Positions 11,198 to 48,395 of a stretch of DNA of 57,128 nucleotides are shown piece by piece. Made by a program: the position numbers and the translations under genes. Every line of letters starts with the position of its first letter. Positions within the stretch are counted from its first letter, which is position 1. Under the pieces are notes generated by a model. The model had not been told where the DNA came from. It ran no database searches and saw nothing but the letters and a program-made list of their open reading frames with translations. Source of the DNA: Hyphomonas sp. TMED17 (lineage in GTDB: Bacteria; Pseudomonadota; Alphaproteobacteria; Caulobacterales; Hyphomonadaceae); the NCBI GenBank assembly GCA_002172915.1, contig NHBW01000008.1, forward strand, positions 51,767 through 108,894, given 5' to 3'.

Positions 11198-12139
11198 ATG
11201 ACCGCACCCGACTTTGCAATTGAAACGATAGATCTTTGTAAAACCTATCATGCTGCTGGGAATATGCCTGAAAAACTGGCATTGGATAAAATCAATCTGA
11301 AAGTCCCGAGAGGAAGTATTTTCGGATTGCTAGGTCCCAATGGCGCCGGAAAATCGACATTCATCAATATTCTTGCAGGGCTGGTCACGAAATCCTCTGG
11401 TAAAGTGAATATCTGGGGCCTTGATATCGATACGAATCCGAGATCGTCGCGATCGGCTATCGGTGTGGTGAACCAAGAAATTGCCATGGATCCATTTTTC
11501 ACCCCCCTTCAGGCACTGAATTTTCAGGCCGGTTATTACGGCGTCCCCAAAGAGCAAAGGCGGATACTCGAAATCTTGCAAGCGGTCGGGCTGGACGACA
11601 AGAAGGACGCCTATGTTCGCCAGCTGTCCGGTGGCATGAAGCGTCGCCTGATGGTGGCGAAAGCGCTGGTTCATAATCCGCCGGTCCTGATCCTTGACGA
11701 ACCCACGGCCGGGGTTGATGTCGAACTTCGTCGGTCCCTCTGGTCCTATGTACGTGAACTCAACGAAATGGGCACAACAATTATTCTGACGACTCATTAT
11801 CTCGAAGAGGCTGAAGAGCTTTGCAATGAGATTGCCATTATCAATGACGGACGCGTGCTGACGCAGGAACCCAAACAGCAATTATTAGGACGACTCGACA
11901 AAAGAGTTCTGAGCATCACCCCCCGCGAGCCGGTGACGCAAATACCCGATAGCCTTGCCGGTCTTGACGCCAGTATTTCTGCCGATGGCACAATCCTGAT
12001 CAAATTCAGAACAGCTGAAACGGGAATCGGTCGCTTGCTGGAACAGGTTCGCGAGGCCGGTATAGGAATTTCCGACCTCGCGACCTCGCAACCGAGCCTT
12101 GAAGACGTATTTGTCGCGATGACGAGTAGAGCCGCTTAG
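11198..12139 (+). CDS. ABC transporter ATP-binding protein (YadG/DrrA-like)
   Basis: 313 residues. Walker A is GLLGPNGAGKST, the Q-loop NQE, the signature LSGGMKRR, Walker B LILDEPTAGVD with the catalytic Glu replaced in none of the key positions, and the H-loop TTHYLEEAE. The C-terminal 80 residues are the extra domain seen in drug/lipid or polysaccharide ABC-2 exporters. Such ATPases normally pair with an ABC-2 permease encoded next to them. Here the next gene is the convergent mtnP, only 4 bases away, so any partner must be elsewhere. The substrate is unknown. Confidence 0.9.
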   Translation: MTAPDFAIETIDLCKTYHAAGNMPEKLALDKINLKVPRGSIFGLLGPNGAGKSTFINILAGLVTKSSGKVNIWGLDIDTNPRSSRSAIGVVNQEIAMDPFFTPLQALNFQAGYYGVPKEQRRILEILQAVGLDDKKDAYVRQLSGGMKRRLMVAKALVHNPPVLILDEPTAGVDVELRRSLWSYVRELNEMGTTIILTTHYLEEAEELCNEIAIINDGRVLTQEPKQQLLGRLDKRVLSITPREPVTQIPDSLAGLDASISADGTILIKFRTAETGIGRLLEQVREAGIGISDLATSQPSLEDVFVAMTSRAA

Positions 12140-12143
12140 GCAG

Positions 12144-13025
12144 CTATTGCGGGCTTAACACCCGCCCGGCGACGGCATCCAGCTTGGCGATCTGATCCGG
12201 ATCGCGAGCCTCTGGCGCGGTAATCAACGCAAAATCGAGACAGGTCTCGATCCCCTGTGGCGACAATGTTCTTGGAACCGCCTGCAGCTGCTGGGCCAGA
12301 TTCTGCAATGTCTGCTGCGCGTGCGCTGTATTTTTCTGCATAATATCGAGGACATCGGTAACTTCGACACCATTTTCGCCTTCGCGCCAGCAGTCATAAT
12401 CGGTGACCATGGCCATTGTCGCATACGGCAGCTCCGCTTCACGCGCCAATTTCGCTTCAGGCATATTTGTCATCCCGATTACATCACATCCCCATTGCCG
12501 ATAGAGGTAGCTTTCGGCCCGGGAGGAAAATTGCGGCCCCTCCATAGCGAGATAAGTACCGCCTTGGTGAATTTTTACGCCCGTCGGTCCGGCAGCCTCG
12601 GCAACCAGTCCAGACAAGCGCCGACAGACCGGATCAGCCATTGAAACGTGCGCCACAACCCCGTCACCGAAAAAACTATTGTCACGGTGGATCGTTCGAT
12701 CAATGAACTGGTCAACAAACACGAAGTCACCGGGCGCATAGGCTTCACGTAACGACCCGCAGGCCGAAATTGACACAATATCGCTACAGCCCAGACGCTT
12801 TAAAGCATCGATATTCGCACGGTATGGTACGGCTGAGGGTGTTAGCCGGTGTCCTTTGCCATGACGGGGCAGAAAGACAAAGCTGATGGCACCGATCCGG
12901 CCTTTGACAAGGCGATCGGATGGCGCGCCCCAAGGCGTCTCCAAATCTATCGTTTCGGTATCCTGCAGGCCTTGTAGATCATACAGCCCAGATCCACCGA
13001 TCACACCGATTACCCAATTATCCAT
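12144..13025 (-). CDS. mtnP: S-methyl-5'-thioadenosine phosphorylase
   Basis: Phosphorolyses methylthioadenosine to adenine and methylthioribose-1-phosphate, recycling the by-product of polyamine and homoserine-lactone synthesis. At 293 residues it shows IGGSGLYDL, the phosphate and base segments (FLPRHGKGH, NIDALKRLG, SACGSL), GPQFSSRAE and the purine-site GMTNMPEAKLAREAELPYA with TDYDCW. It starts 16 bases after a rho-independent terminator that closes the petABC operon, so it needs its own promoter inside or just upstream of that hairpin, or it relies on read-through. Confidence 0.94.
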   Translation of the reverse strand: MDNWVIGVIGGSGLYDLQGLQDTETIDLETPWGAPSDRLVKGRIGAISFVFLPRHGKGHRLTPSAVPYRANIDALKRLGCSDIVSISACGSLREAYAPGDFVFVDQFIDRTIHRDNSFFGDGVVAHVSMADPVCRRLSGLVAEAAGPTGVKIHQGGTYLAMEGPQFSSRAESYLYRQWGCDVIGMTNMPEAKLAREAELPYATMAMVTDYDCWREGENGVEVTDVLDIMQKNTAHAQQTLQNLAQQLQAVPRTLSPQGIETCLDFALITAPEARDPDQIAKLDAVAGRVLSPQ

Positions 13026-40529: not shown

Positions 40530-42368
40530 ATGTGCGGAATTATTGGGATTGTCGGACAACACGACGATGTATCAGATAAGCTCGTCGAAGCGCTCGCACG
40601 GCTCGAATATCGCGGCTATGATAGCGCCGGCATTGCAACTCTGCAGGACCAGCAAACCGATCGCCGTCGGGCTGCCGGTAAACTGTCCAATCTGCGCGCC
40701 TTGCTCGCCGCCGAACCCGTCAATGGTACGTGTGGGATCGGTCATACACGATGGGCAACCCATGGCCCGCCAACGACGACTAATGCCCATCCGCACCAGT
40801 CAGGGCCGGTCACGCTTGTCCATAATGGAATTATCGAAAATTTCCGCGAATTAAGAGCAGAGCTTGGACAGGGCGGCCATGTTTTTGAAACAGATACCGA
40901 CACTGAAACAATCGCTCATCTAATCCATCACAATCTAAAGGCTGGGCATCAGCCAAGTGAAGCGCTCGCGCTCGCCCTGGGCCGGTTGAAAGGCGCGTTT
41001 GCACTTGCCATTCTAATTGAAGGTCAGGACGACATGATCATGGGCGCCCGCAAGGGGTCGCCGCTTGTCATCGGAATTGGCAACGATGAAATGCTGCTCG
41101 GATCCGACGCGCTCGCGGTCGCACCTTTCACCAACAGAGTTATCTATCTCGAGGAAGGCGACTGGTGTATTCTGAGACCGGACGCTTCCGAGATTTATGC
41201 CGAAGACGGCACAGCAGTCGAGCGCCCGGTTACGATCGTGCAGGGCAGCGCTGCAGCTGCCGAAAAAGGCAATTATCGCCATTTCATGCAGAAGGAAATC
41301 TACGAACAGCCGGAAACGACTGCTCGGACAATCGGTGCCTATGTCGATGCGCTGACCCAAACTGTGACACTGCCGGGTCAGAACGAAACCATTATCGACT
41401 GGGCGTCGATCCAGAACCTGCAAATCATCGCCTGCGGAACAGCCTATTATGCCGGCTGTGTCGCAGAATACTGGTTTGAACAGCTTGCCGGCATACCGGT
41501 CAAAAGCGATATTGCATCGGAGTTTCGCTACCGTGAGCCCGCTTTACCGGCCCAAGGTGGACTGGCTATTTTCATTAGCCAATCCGGTGAAACAGCCGAT
41601 ACGCTTGCCGCCCTACGATATTGCAAACAGGCCGGTCTTAAAACAGCGGCTGTCGTTAATGTAGCAACCTCATCAATCGCGCGCGACGTCGATTTCATTC
41701 TCCCCACGCTCGCGGGTCCGGAGATCGGGGTGGCCTCGACCAAAGCCTTCACCGCCCAGCTTTGTGCTCTCGCCGCCTGCGCCATCGCCGCGGCGAAAGC
41801 ACGTCTGCGAATTGACAGAGATACTGAAGTCAGCCTGACCAATGCGCTCAATAGCGTACCCCGCCTGATCTCGGACGCGATTGCACTGGAAGACGATATC
41901 ATCGAGCTCTCCAAATCACTATCGAAGGCAAGTGATGTTCTTTATCTCGGGCGCGGACCGCATTATCCGATTGCGCTCGAAGGCGCCCTTAAACTCAAGG
42001 AGATCAGCTATATTCATGCTGAAGGCTTTGCCGCCGGTGAACTGAAACACGGCCCGATTGCGCTGGTCGAAGAAACGACACCTATCATCTTCGTCGCCCC
42101 CGACGATCATCTGTTCGAGAAATCCTTATCGAACCTCGAAGAAGTCGCTGCACGTGGCGGCCAGATTGCTCTGATATCAGACCATGCGGGGCTTGAAAAA
42201 GCCGGCGACAGTCCGCTCTTAAAGCTCTGTATTCCCGCCTGCGACCCATTCGTCGCACCTATTCTGGCGGCAATTCCGATCCAGATGGTTGCCTATCATA
42301 CAGCGGTTGAAAAAGGCACAGATGTCGATCAACCCCGTAATCTGGCCAAGTCGGTTACAGTGGAGTAA
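40530..42368 (+). CDS. glmS: Glutamine-fructose-6-phosphate aminotransferase (isomerising)
   Basis: Makes glucosamine-6-P from fructose-6-P and glutamine. 612 residues. The N-terminal glutaminase begins CGIIGIVG, with Cys-2 as nucleophile; GIGHTRWATHG follows. Two SIS domains carry the sugar part (CGTAYYAG, SQSGETADTLA and SYIHAEGFAAGELKHGP). The C-terminus NLAKSVTVE is the conserved end, the DNA of which is the attachment site of Tn7-like elements in other bacteria. Degenerate copies of this end occur downstream. Confidence 0.97.
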   Translation: MCGIIGIVGQHDDVSDKLVEALARLEYRGYDSAGIATLQDQQTDRRRAAGKLSNLRALLAAEPVNGTCGIGHTRWATHGPPTTTNAHPHQSGPVTLVHNGIIENFRELRAELGQGGHVFETDTDTETIAHLIHHNLKAGHQPSEALALALGRLKGAFALAILIEGQDDMIMGARKGSPLVIGIGNDEMLLGSDALAVAPFTNRVIYLEEGDWCILRPDASEIYAEDGTAVERPVTIVQGSAAAAEKGNYRHFMQKEIYEQPETTARTIGAYVDALTQTVTLPGQNETIIDWASIQNLQIIACGTAYYAGCVAEYWFEQLAGIPVKSDIASEFRYREPALPAQGGLAIFISQSGETADTLAALRYCKQAGLKTAAVVNVATSSIARDVDFILPTLAGPEIGVASTKAFTAQLCALAACAIAAAKARLRIDRDTEVSLTNALNSVPRLISDAIALEDDIIELSKSLSKASDVLYLGRGPHYPIALEGALKLKEISYIHAEGFAAGELKHGPIALVEETTPIIFVAPDDHLFEKSLSNLEEVAARGGQIALISDHAGLEKAGDSPLLKLCIPACDPFVAPILAAIPIQMVAYHTAVEKGTDVDQPRNLAKSVTVE

Positions 42369-42371
42369 TTC
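42344..42371 (+). repeat. glmS-tail sequence, copy 1 (native glmS end)
   Basis: The native 3' end of glmS, GGCCAAGTCG followed by GTTACAGTGGAGTAATTC (42354-42371). It is the reference for the two degenerate copies at 42801 and 42971. An ATG follows 27 bases later. Confidence 0.75.
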
Positions 42372-42398
42372 ACAACAGTAAATTAAAGAGAAGGTACT

Positions 42399-42527
42399 AT
42401 GGAAGGATTAGCAGTAATGGGTTTTGTTTTCGGGATGATAGGCGTTGTGGCGCTTGTTCGTTTGGAGAAATTAACAAAAATATTAAAAGAAAAAGGAATT
42501 TTGGATCAGGATTACAAGGAAGAATAA
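42399..42527 (+). CDS. Tiny membrane protein, 42 residues
   Basis: Too short for routine ORF calls. It starts ATG 42399 after AGAGAAGG. The predicted single membrane helix is LAVMGFVFGMIGVVALV, then a basic-to-acidic tail KLTKILKEKGILDQDYKEE. The codon usage is AT-rich and unlike glmS. The topology and tail suggest a small regulatory or holin-like protein, but no family was recognised. First of a series after glmS. Confidence 0.65.
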   Translation: MEGLAVMGFVFGMIGVVALVRLEKLTKILKEKGILDQDYKEE

Positions 42528-42578
42528 ATGACTGTTGTAAAACATTCCATAACTGTCGAATAGAAATTACCAAATGCT

Positions 42579-42782
42579 ATGCAAAAATATCTAGTCATTT
42601 TCTTAGTGTTAATTCTATGTCTCTTTGCCGCCAGTATCATGCTTGATATTGCACGATACGTCATGAATGGGATGCCAAATTATGACTTTTATGTCCTTCC
42701 CATTGGGGCTTTGATACTAATGATTGGTCTGCCAATCATCTATAATTTGATTAACGATTTGATTAAAAAGAGAAGTAAGTAA
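42579..42782 (+). CDS. Small membrane protein, 67 residues
   Basis: Two predicted helices, residues 4-25 (YLVIFLVLILCLFAASIML) and 40-58 (VLPIGALILMIGLPIIYNL), with a basic end (IKKRSK). It follows the 42-residue gene after 51 bases in the same AT-rich stretch. No family was recognised. Confidence 0.6.
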   Translation: MQKYLVIFLVLILCLFAASIMLDIARYVMNGMPNYDFYVLPIGALILMIGLPIIYNLINDLIKKRSK

Positions 42783-42800
42783 TTTTAGGTGACAATATCG

Positions 42801-42837
42801 GGTGGGGCAAGAACTCTCCGTTACAGTGAAATAGTTC
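42801..42837 (+). repeat. Degenerate glmS-tail repeat, copy 2
   Basis: The last 18 bases, GTTACAGTGAAATAGTTC, match the native glmS end at 15 of 18 positions. The whole 37-bp block aligns without gaps with copy 3 (25 of 37). It does not code for glmS here. The 31-residue ORF begins 29 bases later. Confidence 0.65.
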
Positions 42838-42866
42838 TAACCAGATTAATTACTGCAGGAATAAAA

Positions 42867-42962
42867 ATGCAAACTCATGTGAGACGTTTTATTATCTCCA
42901 TTATGGTTAATGCAATTATGTGGGGGCTCATTTTTTGGTTCTTTTTTGCGTTTATTTTCTGA
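42867..42962 (+). CDS. Tiny membrane protein, 31 residues
   Basis: MQTHVRRFIISIMVNAIMWG followed by LIFWFFFAFIF: a short basic N-terminus and one long hydrophobic helix, ending in TGA at 42962. GCAGGA lies 7 bases before ATG 42867. Not listed by length filters. Unknown function; possibly a membrane-active peptide. Confidence 0.5.
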   Translation: MQTHVRRFIISIMVNAIMWGLIFWFFFAFIF

Positions 42963-42970
42963 TTATTTTG

Positions 42971-43007
42971 GGCCGGTCAAGAATACGCGGTTGCAGCAGA
43001 ATAATTC
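42971..43007 (+). repeat. Degenerate glmS-tail repeat, copy 3
   Basis: GTTGCAGCAGAATAATTC matches the native glmS end at 14 of 18 positions. It lies 26 bases before the ATG of the MAPEG gene, close to the spacing after copies 1 and 2. Confidence 0.6.
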
Positions 43008-43033
43008 AGAAAAACTCGGTGGGATAAAACAAA

Positions 43034-43396
43034 ATGATTGAGATAATTGCCGGCACATCCGTGTTGTATCTAGTTCAACTTTTGCTTCCCATTTACCTTA
43101 AGACAGGAAGCGAACCCGCAAAAAGGGCCGCCAGAGCAGTCAAAAATCTGGGGGAGTCGCTTCCGGTATTCTTTACACTAGCTGTCCTATCAATTGTTAT
43201 GGACGTGGAAGCGAACACATCGATCGCGCTTTTTTGGCTGATCATCAGATTGCTATATTTCGTTATTTACACAACCGGCATCGGAAGACAGGAAAGATCA
43301 CAAAACGGTACACTTCAGGAGACCCAAAAGATAAGATCCTTAACATGGTCTGCGTCTCTATTCTGTTTAATCTGGATGACGGGTAATTTGATATAA
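43034..43396 (+). CDS. MAPEG-family membrane protein
   Basis: 120 residues, about four membrane helices. The pattern RAARAVKNLGESLPVFFTLAV, after a hydrophobic N-terminus, is the MAPEG signature (eicosanoid and glutathione metabolism in eukaryotes; unknown in bacteria). GGTGGGA precedes the ATG. Its composition is AT-richer than the core genes, and it is part of the glmS-tail array. Confidence 0.75.
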   Translation: MIEIIAGTSVLYLVQLLLPIYLKTGSEPAKRAARAVKNLGESLPVFFTLAVLSIVMDVEANTSIALFWLIIRLLYFVIYTTGIGRQERSQNGTLQETQKIRSLTWSASLFCLIWMTGNLI

Positions 43397-43581: not shown

Positions 43582-44207
43582 ATGTTCTATAATAGCATTC
43601 TTCTAAAAGCCCTCTGCCTGATATTATTCGACTCGAGCATTATTCTGATAGAATTTGTCGGCTTTCTGCAGCCTGACTACAATTCGACGGGGCATTACAT
43701 CAGTGAACTTGGCGCCACCGGGGCACAATATGCAAACATAATAAATTATTTTAGCTTCCTGCCGGTCGCCTTTAGCTCATTGATTATAATACTTTTTCTA
43801 CAGTCTAAATTTCAACGAGCATACTATCGCGGATAGGATTTTTATGTATCGGCCTGGGGATCCTTATCGGCTATTTCGGCGCCTTCATGTATCCTTGCGA
43901 CTATGGCTGCCCGACCGAGGGCAGTTTTAGTCAAATCATGCATAATGGTCTTGGTTTGATATCTTATATGATTTGGCTCAAAGACACTCTGCTTCTGACG
44001 AAAAACATCATTCCACATAATCTTGTCGTCAAAAAGCAAGACGACGGGCTGCAGCTTAAAATTATTGATGGGCTCGGATGCGCCTCTTTTATTCCGCTAC
44101 CCGAAATGAACAGACGATTTGCCCGACAATATGTGAACAGAAGAATAGAATTGATGCACGCACGAATTCGCTGGGACCTGTCGGGCAGGCAAGGCGAATG
44201 GAAATAA
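43582..44207 (+). pseudogene. DUF998 gene remnant joined to a YrbL-like gene remnant
   Basis: The start (ATG 43582) reads FYNSILLKALCLILFDSSII and QPDYNSTGHYISELGATGAQYAN, a DUF998 membrane protein, and breaks at a stop at 43834. The next frame resumes with GFLCIGLGILIGYFGAFMYPCDYGCPTEGSF...HNGLGLISYMIW, the continuation of DUF998. Directly after it comes LKDTLLLTKNIIPHNLVV and IIDGLGCASFIPLPEMNRRFARQY, the C-terminal end of a YrbL-PhoP-regulated protein. So one frameshift plus a deletion joining two genes. It ends at 44207. Confidence 0.75.
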
Positions 44208-47428: not shown

Positions 47429-48278
47429 ATCCGACTGACAATCTGACCGGGTCTGCGACCCCGTTACCCCTAAAGGCCGGAATTGCCGCCCGACGCTACA
47501 CGCTCACCGATGGCAATTGACGTCTCCGCTAGAGGCAGACTGCATCCGAAAGCATGTCAGCAACCGAAAAACGGTCGTGCGAGCAGAAACACTATCCTGT
47601 CCTAGAGCAGACACAGCAGCCCGCCCGGCTTTAACCGGTTTACAGAATGCTTAGCGCGAAGAGGTCGTTTGGCTCGGCTTGAGGGACGTTTAGATTCAAA
47701 TCGCACCAGTCCATGCCCAGGCCGCGCTTGCAACACTGTCAATTCCGCCTGGTCTTTATACCCCCTGACACGCAAAGGGGACCCGACGACACAAGCGCTC
47801 AGGAACAGTCCCGGTCAATTTTCTTATCCGGGGTTCGGGGCCCGCCATCTCCATTCAGGAAATCCAGCAGGGCCAGTAATTCGCTGCTCCATCCGCTCAC
47901 ACCATGAACGCTAAGGATCACTGGTCGATGCGATTTGCAGTATCAAAACCTTCAAACAAACCGGGCACAAGGCATAAATATTTCGCCACTTGCACGCTAT
48001 GAACGGTCTCTATACTGACGCACTGCGCGCTGCCGGCGCGTTTACTCTGATGCTGGGACATGGTCCGCATATGCGCCTGATTTCCCGCTTAAGACATAGA
48101 ATTGACATCCAACCGGCCGCGTCGCACTCTGCTCGGAAGCACTGGGTCGTTGAAAAGCATAGGCAGGTGCCGATGCAATGGTCACAAGCGACTTACAGCC
48201 GGAGCCGATATCACATCGCCAGAAACAATTATGGCGGGACATGCCCGCCATAATCTCATCTCGCTGAAATACTGAATA
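47429..48278. other. Gene-poor spacer with a possible gene fragment (850 bp)
   Basis: No convincing gene. A short minus-strand frame at 47799-47921 reads VSGWSSELLALLDFLNG in a protein-like way but has no family match and may be a remnant. An 11-bp hairpin lies at 48228-48254. The rest holds only ORF-track-like shadows without codon logic. Confidence 0.35.
48228..48254 (-). terminator. Hairpin after the 38-residue gene, possible terminator
   Basis: A perfect 11-bp stem ATTATGGCGGG/CCCGCCATAAT with a 5-base loop. On the minus strand it is followed by TTGTTTCTGG, which is T-rich but not a run, so termination is only likely. Confidence 0.5.
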
Positions 48279-48395
48279 TTAAATTATAAATTCAGCGAAC
48301 AGCAAAACGAAGCCAAAACTGGCAGCCGCGACCGGAACAGCAAGAAGCGCCGCGAACAGGCCTTGCCTGGCTTCTGTTTGGGAGGAAACGCGCAT
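48279..48395 (-). CDS. Tiny membrane protein, 38 residues
   Basis: MRVSSQTEARQGLFAALLAV, then a hydrophobic end PVAAASFGFVLLFAEFII. ATG 48395 is preceded by AGAAGGAAT at 8 bases, a good ribosome site. One membrane helix, with the positive N-terminus probably inside. The hairpin after it supports a transcription unit. Unknown family. Confidence 0.6.
   Translation of the reverse strand: MRVSSQTEARQGLFAALLAVPVAAASFGFVLLFAEFII

Follow-up and report, generated by a model that had tools for sequence, protein, structure and literature searches.

The DNA analysed here, called the window, is a stretch of 57,128 nucleotides from the alphaproteobacterium Hyphomonas sp. TMED17 (assembly GCA_002172915.1, contig NHBW01000008.1, positions 51,767 to 108,894). 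The stretch directly behind glmS in the window is probably an array of tiny cassettes inserted site-specifically at the end of this gene. An earlier note on the window had reported degenerate copies of the glmS 3' end, each leading into a small membrane open reading frame (ORF), and had proposed that they are fossil attachment sites or cassette borders. This proposal was right in substance. The window's genome (G000; G and L denote genomes and loci below) is a 2.45-Mb assembly, 91% complete.

Displaced copies of the glmS tail

It turned out that the repeated unit is not an 18-mer of DNA but the last six codons of glmS, Ser-Val-Thr-Val-Glu-stop (TCN GTN ACN GTN GAR stop). Three displaced copies of this tail lie behind glmS: SITVE-stop (42546), SVTVK-stop (42817) and AVAAE-stop (42987). 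The features of the array and of its surroundings are as follows (aa, amino acids).

40530..42368, + strand: glmS, 612 aa; its C-terminus would be supplied by the newest cassette
42351..42368, + strand: glmS tail A (SVTVE-stop), the attachment site in use
42358..42552, + strand: cassette 1, 195 bp between crossovers (presumed crossover place)
42363..42382, + strand: left arm of cassette 1, 14/20 against the right arm
42399..42527, + strand: ORF1, 42 aa, small membrane protein; G293 has a copy with 83% identity
42528..42547, + strand: right arm of cassette 1
42546..42563, + strand: displaced tail B (SITVE-stop)
42553..42823, + strand: cassette 2, 271 bp; no recognisable arms (6/20)
42579..42782, + strand: ORF2, 67 aa, membrane protein behind tail B; no convincing relative found
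42817..42834, + strand: displaced tail C (SVTVK-stop)
42824..42993, + strand: cassette 3, 170 bp; arms weak (9/20)
42867..42962, + strand: ORF3, 31 aa, small membrane protein
42987..43004, + strand: displaced tail D (AVAAE-stop), the weakest copy
43034..43396, + strand: MAPEG-family ORF, 120 aa; may be the first gene in a fourth cassette, for which no right end was found
48228..48254, + strand: hairpin with an 11-bp perfect stem, resembling the hairpin after glmS in genus relatives
48279..48395, - strand: small reverse ORF, found close behind glmS in 22/26 genus loci

The tail copies are beyond chance. The 18-mers at 42354-42371, 42820-42837 (15/18) and 42990-43007 (14/18), on which the earlier note was built, were confirmed in coordinates and letters. 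They are the three best matches to the native 18-mer on both strands of the whole window, and the next-best matches (three places) reach 13/18. In dinucleotide shuffles of 42372-43036, a 15/18 match was reached in 2/3000 cases, and matches of 15 and 14 together in 0/3000, so the repeats passed the shuffling check proposed with them. Within the 665 bp that follow glmS there are two occurrences of the degenerate tail TCNRTNACNGTNRARTRR; at least one occurrence was obtained in 0/20,000 shuffles. The whole assembly holds only three exact matches to TCNRTNACNGTNRARTRR, namely glmS and two of the displaced copies. A looser six-frame tail motif gave five matches in the window, four of them inside 42351-43007 on the + strand, and the same motif gave eight scattered matches in 40 same-family regions behind glmS (270,787 bases).

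A fourth tail at 42546-42563 (TCCATAACTGTCGAATAG, copy B) and ORF2 behind it had been overlooked. Six of the seven differences between copy B and the glmS tail fall at third codon positions, as do three of the four differences of copy C. This bias would be expected of former ends of working glmS genes. The stretch is indeed AT-rich, as had been noted: the GC content of 42369-43033 is 34.9%, compared with 52.4% for the window. The constant spacing between repeat and ATG, considered the unusual part of the arrangement, was not found, since the distances from stop codon to ATG behind the four tails are 30, 15, 32 and 29 nt. Promoter-like sites were uninformative (9 found, 9.1 expected).

A tail that resembles copy D (GCGGTTGCAGCAGAATAA) is SVAAE-stop (TCGGTTGCAGCGGAGTAG), located behind glmS in G539 (L177), 1774 bases from the glmS tail. 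Perhaps these two sequences represent a second version of the site.

Inverted arms around a common axis

In cassette 1 the two ends are inverted repeats of each other (14/20), with the Thr codon at the centre. The shuffle mean for these arms was 5.8, none of 20,000 shuffles equalled 14/20, and the best of 60 slid positions gave 10. The axis, between tail positions 6 and 7, is common to cassette 1 and to the recombinase-bearing elements described below. The arms (out of 20) at that axis are 13 in G029, 15 in G293, 18 in both L077 and L093, 17 in G536 and 16 in G538. They are further 14 in the first cassette of G152, 17 in L162, 15 in L163, 13 in L165, 12 in L177 and 16 in G551, where the pair was measured across two contigs. 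Overall, 13/19 end pairs reach at least 12/20. Inverted arms at one axis are thus present in cassette 1 and in 12 of the 16 pairs outside the window. Imperfect dyad symmetry around a short core is a feature of large-serine-recombinase sites; it is seen in cassette 1, L077, L093, G536 and G538, and it is not seen in window cassettes 2 and 3. The note had suggested comparing the repeats with the target sites of Tn7-like or integrase elements. The comparison did not favour Tn7, but the sites do resemble serine-recombinase attachment sites, with ends that, where recognisable, are inverted around the Thr codon. Locus L164 has a left end of the L163 type and a right end of the L162 type, which may be read as two neighbouring elements that have lost the tail between them.

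Larger elements with a serine recombinase at the same site

Elements of 10-13 kb at glmS carry a large serine recombinase. When viral contigs (IMG/VR) were scanned for the glmS tail, 25 loci were obtained, and in L077, L086 and L093 the glmS end runs into ATTTCGTAATATAAAATG. The right end of the same element is seen in L116 (IMG/VR). In L077 and L093, a second, bare tail, SITVE-stop, lies ~10.5 kb downstream at the end of the element. The large serine recombinase adjoins the right end in L077 and has Resolvase, Recombinase and Zn ribbon domains. Its best NCBIfam model is CcrB (E 9e-30), with 103.8 bits against a cut-off of 900 bits. Comparison of the L077 recombinase with genome contigs revealed three relatives, and in all three the element is at glmS. 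G538 is an alphaproteobacterial metagenome-assembled genome (MAG) with the left end on one contig and the recombinase and right end on another. G536 is Pseudidiomarina taiwanensis; its recombinase is 73% identical, and its glmS and recombinase loci overlap by 565 identical bases. G537 is a gammaproteobacterial MAG whose contig ends inside the recombinase gene, so that the right end is not visible.

In these elements the outer halves of the site vary with the host and the inner halves are nearly constant. The first eight tail bases at the five left junctions are host-specific (TCGGTGAC, TCAGTGAC, TCCGTTAC, AGTGTTAC, TCGGTAAC), and in 5/5 they are followed by [AG]GTGGAATA[AG]ATTTCG. At the right junctions, CGAAATTYAYTCC.. 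is nearly constant up to the Thr codon and passes there into host-varying sequence, with L077 and L116 being identical in this part. This pattern, host-specific outside and near-constant inside, places the crossover at the Thr codon and demonstrates that the glmS end comes from the element. The two ends of the recombinase elements match each other in inverted orientation at 16-18/20 positions, with the axis lying between tail positions 6 and 7. None of the ORFs of the window array is a recombinase gene of its own; such genes are present on the larger elements. Distant relatives of the element recombinase (E<=1e-8) were found in 44/130 relatives, and among phage records only distant relatives were found (14 records, <60% identity).

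Several candidates from the viral contigs were set aside. A scan for ATTCCATNACNGTNGARTAR gave 18 loci, of which L077, L093 and L116 are the right end of the element; the other 15 were judged from their short flanks to be chance. L074, L083 and L091 from the glmS-tail scan also look like chance, and L082, assembled back to back with its tail preceded by two different sequences, was not used.

In L147 of Pseudidiomarina taiwanensis, the displaced glmS tail that belongs to the serine-recombinase element is closely followed by a TnsA-like gene (11641-12915). Thus, two kinds of element appear to be stacked at this glmS. A lone Recombinase domain (PF07508) was found in small proteins adjoining the site, at the right end of L162 (E 4.3e-6) and in L148 (5713-6075, E 1.5e-5). 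Relatives of the L162 protein are encoded in L164, L165 and L173. It is possible that these small proteins, which have no catalytic domain, are accessory factors.

Empty and occupied glmS ends in other genomes

Among 106 genomes drawn from the class, the strict tail was matched in 61. The scan of relatives for further copies, which the earlier note had recommended, gave another tail array in G152, besides the eight scattered matches mentioned above. G152 is the single genome among the 106 with three tails within ~520 bp. Its tails are at positions 1, 238, 500 and 1593, the fourth of which (YVTVE-stop) was spotted by reading. The intervals between the first three tails hold hydrophobic ORFs, one of 50 aa and one of 60 aa.

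G152 belongs to a family of AT-rich alphaproteobacteria (f13) that was sampled with 32 genomes, 24 of which matched the strict tail. Twenty regions were fetched, 17 with a glmS end, and the strict motif gave no match on the opposite strand of these 17. At least two tails on one contig and strand were found in six f13 genomes: G152, G546, G552, G553, G562 and G565. The family contains both empty and occupied glmS ends. In G541 the site is empty, and the glmS tail itself contains the start of an 80-aa gene. This gene begins at the identical base of a displaced tail in G152, G553 and G565, where 1.6 kb, 2.7 kb and 1.2 kb, respectively, separate the displaced tail from the glmS tail. The larger f13 inserts include cytosine-methylase-like genes. 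A full recombinase was not seen among the ORFs of the six f13 inserts, which were inspected by eye. Two cases were dropped before counting: G546 (L161), in which the second tail is inside a longer glmS-like stretch, and G544, in which both contigs read as glmS ends.

In G029, from the window's family, an AT-rich gene, truncated where the contig stops, follows the glmS end. A second contig begins AT-rich and continues with a bare tail and chromosomal genes. The two ends form arms of 13/20, and the contigs are presumed to be neighbours. G135 has two tails with 27 kb between them; as each closes a glmS-like frame, they were not counted. G015 and G135 each contain two glmS genes or glmS-like ends. 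In L105 (G058), positions 509-544, the 18-bp glmS tail is repeated exactly in tandem, with no sequence between the copies. Within the window's genus, a membrane-protein gene lies behind glmS in L031 (G027, 582 bases behind the glmS stop) and in L032 (G023). A AACAGTGAATTAGGATCGA-like stretch occurs twice there, and G027 has an SVTLE-stop tail; perhaps this region is an older cassette.

Distribution of the small ORFs

The ORF1 protein occurs in 2/385 genomes of the class, G000 and G293, the latter from another family. It is absent around and behind glmS in 69 same-genus and same-family loci (414,665 bases), and it has no match in the plasmid collection. In G293, a tail-like sequence lies 30 nt before the ATG. 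A relative of ORF1, with 20/28 residues alike, is located directly behind the displaced tail in L093. Apparently, ORF1 is mobile and travels with its leader. Besides the window itself, ORF2 gave five weak matches in the 385 genomes (E 0.0025-0.0096), all to much longer frames, and they were not accepted.

The right part of the insertion

The small reverse ORF starts less than 350 bases behind glmS in 22 of the 26 loci of the genus. The hairpin lies 18-29 nt behind the glmS stop in 5/7 relatives measured, and the other two have no perfect stem. As the window has such a hairpin and the reverse ORF at 48228-48254 and 48279-48395, the insertion behind glmS amounts to ~5.9 kb, and its right edge lies before the hairpin at 48228. 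The left 0.7 kb of the insertion has 35% GC. The right part contains a truncated DUF998-like frame (PF06197, E 3.3e-4, below the cut-off) and, after it, a C-terminal YrbL-like fragment (PF10707, E 2e-9), both within 43582-44207. These frames point to decayed genes. The sequence TTACAGCCGGAGCCG (48193-48207) lies ~20 nt before the hairpin, where the original tail is expected. It is perhaps a remnant of the original glmS tail and was not counted as evidence.

Discussion

The evidence supports a site-specific insertion at the Thr codon that rebuilds glmS. We propose the following mechanism. As a circle, a cassette would contain a single small ORF plus an attachment site, the right half of which encodes the glmS end (..GTN GAR stop). 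A large serine recombinase, with the recombinase CcrB of the staphylococcal cassette chromosome (SCC) as its nearest named family, would recombine the cassette site with the end of glmS; the exchange would fall in the Thr codon, whose AC lies on the symmetry axis. The enzyme would be supplied in trans by a larger element using the same site. The cassette would provide a new C-terminus, so that GlmS stays intact, and the former C-terminus would be shifted to the far side of the cassette and remain there as a displaced SVTVE-stop-like tail. Repeated insertion at the rebuilt end would yield the order tail-cassette-tail-cassette, with the newest cassette beside glmS and all ORFs in the glmS direction. 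A serine recombinase is proposed for the tiny cassettes because they share axis and target with the recombinase-bearing elements. Action in trans and the exact crossover base are presumed, as is the movement of cassettes 2 and 3 in the same way as cassette 1. The MAPEG gene is perhaps part of a fourth cassette. The small ORFs may be expressed from the glmS promoter, judging by their direction alone.

A number of observations weigh against a site-specific cassette array. The arms fail in window cassettes 2 (6/20) and 3 (9/20), and 6/19 end pairs are below 12/20. Low values were obtained elsewhere too, in the second and third cassettes of G152 (8 and 9), in L164 (8) and in the second cassette of L177 (10); the 12/20 of L177 merely equals its best slid position (12). 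The end pairs are partly dependent, as L077, L093 and G538 are one element type and L162, L164 and L165 share a right end. The arm sequences vary between cassettes, so a single enzyme need not serve all. Tail D differs from glmS at first and second codon positions as well. The right end of the array is undefined: the best arm match for cassette 4 is 13/20, with no adjoining tail. The ORF1 unit of G293 is on a different contig from glmS, with AT at the axis in one of its junctions and AC in the other. The 80-aa gene of G552 does not lie on the displaced tail but 163 bases beyond it. ORF2 has only weak matches, in 5/384 other genomes, and the search for ORF3 covered the loci at hand. Finally, no match to the element recombinase was found in G000 at E<=1e-8, in an assembly that is 91% complete.

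The last point bears on the enzyme. The inverted arms by themselves would fit a tyrosine recombinase too, the core sites of which also have inverted arms around a short centre, and G000 has XerC- and XerD-like proteins. The same cassette array could thus have been moved by, for example, the host XerC/XerD acting on imported sites. However, elements with a large serine recombinase beside the site use the same axis and target. In serine-recombinase attP sites the arms are 10 nt apart and reach out ~20 nt, and the arms here are arranged in this way. We consider movement by a tyrosine recombinase unlikely. It is also conceivable that no recombinase was involved and the glmS 3' end was repeatedly copied by partial duplication or gene conversion. 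Such duplication does occur, as the longer glmS-like stretch with a second tail in G546 (L161) and the tandem tail in G058 indicate. In the window, on the contrary, the glmS similarity ends at the tail, cassette 1 has inverted arms and ORF1 travels with its leader; moreover, the empty and occupied sites of f13 show that foreign DNA was inserted. This explanation is therefore improbable. We give very little credence to the idea that the tails are a regulatory or leader sequence shared by the small ORFs and resemble glmS by accident. Although every tail lies 15-32 nt before an ATG, the distance varies, and the tails keep the glmS coding pattern far above chance behind glmS.

Tn7 uses the same chromosomal address, the glmS 3' end (attTn7), and the earlier note had connected the repeats with it. 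Tn7 insertion is not known to rebuild the C-terminus of the target gene. The TnsA-like gene behind the displaced tail in Pseudidiomarina (PF08722, E 3.2e-18; PF08721, E 1.3e-14) also speaks for Tn7-like insertions having left these fossils. The connection nevertheless did not hold. Tn7 and its relatives are reported to leave a 5-bp target duplication (PMC11406308), whereas the unit copied here is an 18-nt coding tail with mostly synonymous changes, and a Tn7 insertion would not be expected to leave such a copy. Tn7 also needs a target selector of the TniQ/TnsD type; no TniQ protein was found in G000, and TniQ is present in 4/61 genomes searched. The array is not Tn7, and an origin as fossil Tn7-like insertions is highly improbable.

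Comparison with known systems

The cassette array behind glmS works like SCC and the Enterococcus cassette chromosome (ECC) and is not a member of either. SCC and ECC are described as inserted in the rlmH 3' end, with att direct repeats that contain inverted repeats with dyad symmetry, and recombinase-free remnants are known (PMC6222049, PMC3637587). In both cases the insertion is in the 3' end of a conserved gene, and of the NCBIfam models CcrB comes closest to the recombinase found on the glmS elements. As for the repeats that restore the host gene in SCC/ECC, the tails are present here, and end arms were found in cassette 1 and in the 12 outside pairs but not in window cassettes 2 and 3. 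In contrast to SCC/ECC, which use rlmH and CcrA/CcrB, the target here is glmS, the element recombinase scores far below the CcrB cut-off and G000 has no match to it at E<=1e-8. The hosts are Alpha- and Gammaproteobacteria, and the window cassettes are only 170-271 bp long with one ORF each. No description of such arrays at the glmS end was found in the open-licence literature searched, represented mostly by titles and abstracts, together with PMC10872708.

The array recalls integrons in its tiny ORFs of the same direction. In integrons the newest cassette is expected beside the fixed site, and the ordered capture of single genes rests on a tyrosine recombinase. The site in the window differs: it has serine-type symmetry and is formed by the end of a coding gene. 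Integron-integrase models gave scores far below the cut-off in G000. Its two tyrosine recombinases are best described as XerD-like (PRK00283/XerD) and XerC, below the equivalog cut-offs. Judging by these integrase scores and by the site type, the array is not an integron. Our broader suggestion is tentative and somewhat less likely to be true than false: the array may be a serine-recombinase counterpart of the integron, in which recombinase-free single-gene minicircle cassettes of <300 bp are captured in order at the end of an essential gene and expressed behind it in several alphaproteobacterial families, and SCC-like elements provide the enzyme. If so, this would account for small AT-rich ORFs that follow glmS in integrase-free genomes, and the predicted crossover at the Thr codon makes the site open to direct testing. 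The glmS end would then gain another user besides Tn7. It would be a docking point shared between elements, which the situation in Pseudidiomarina suggests. Next to the integron, this would be a second route of cassette capture, based on a serine-type site at the stop end of an essential gene.

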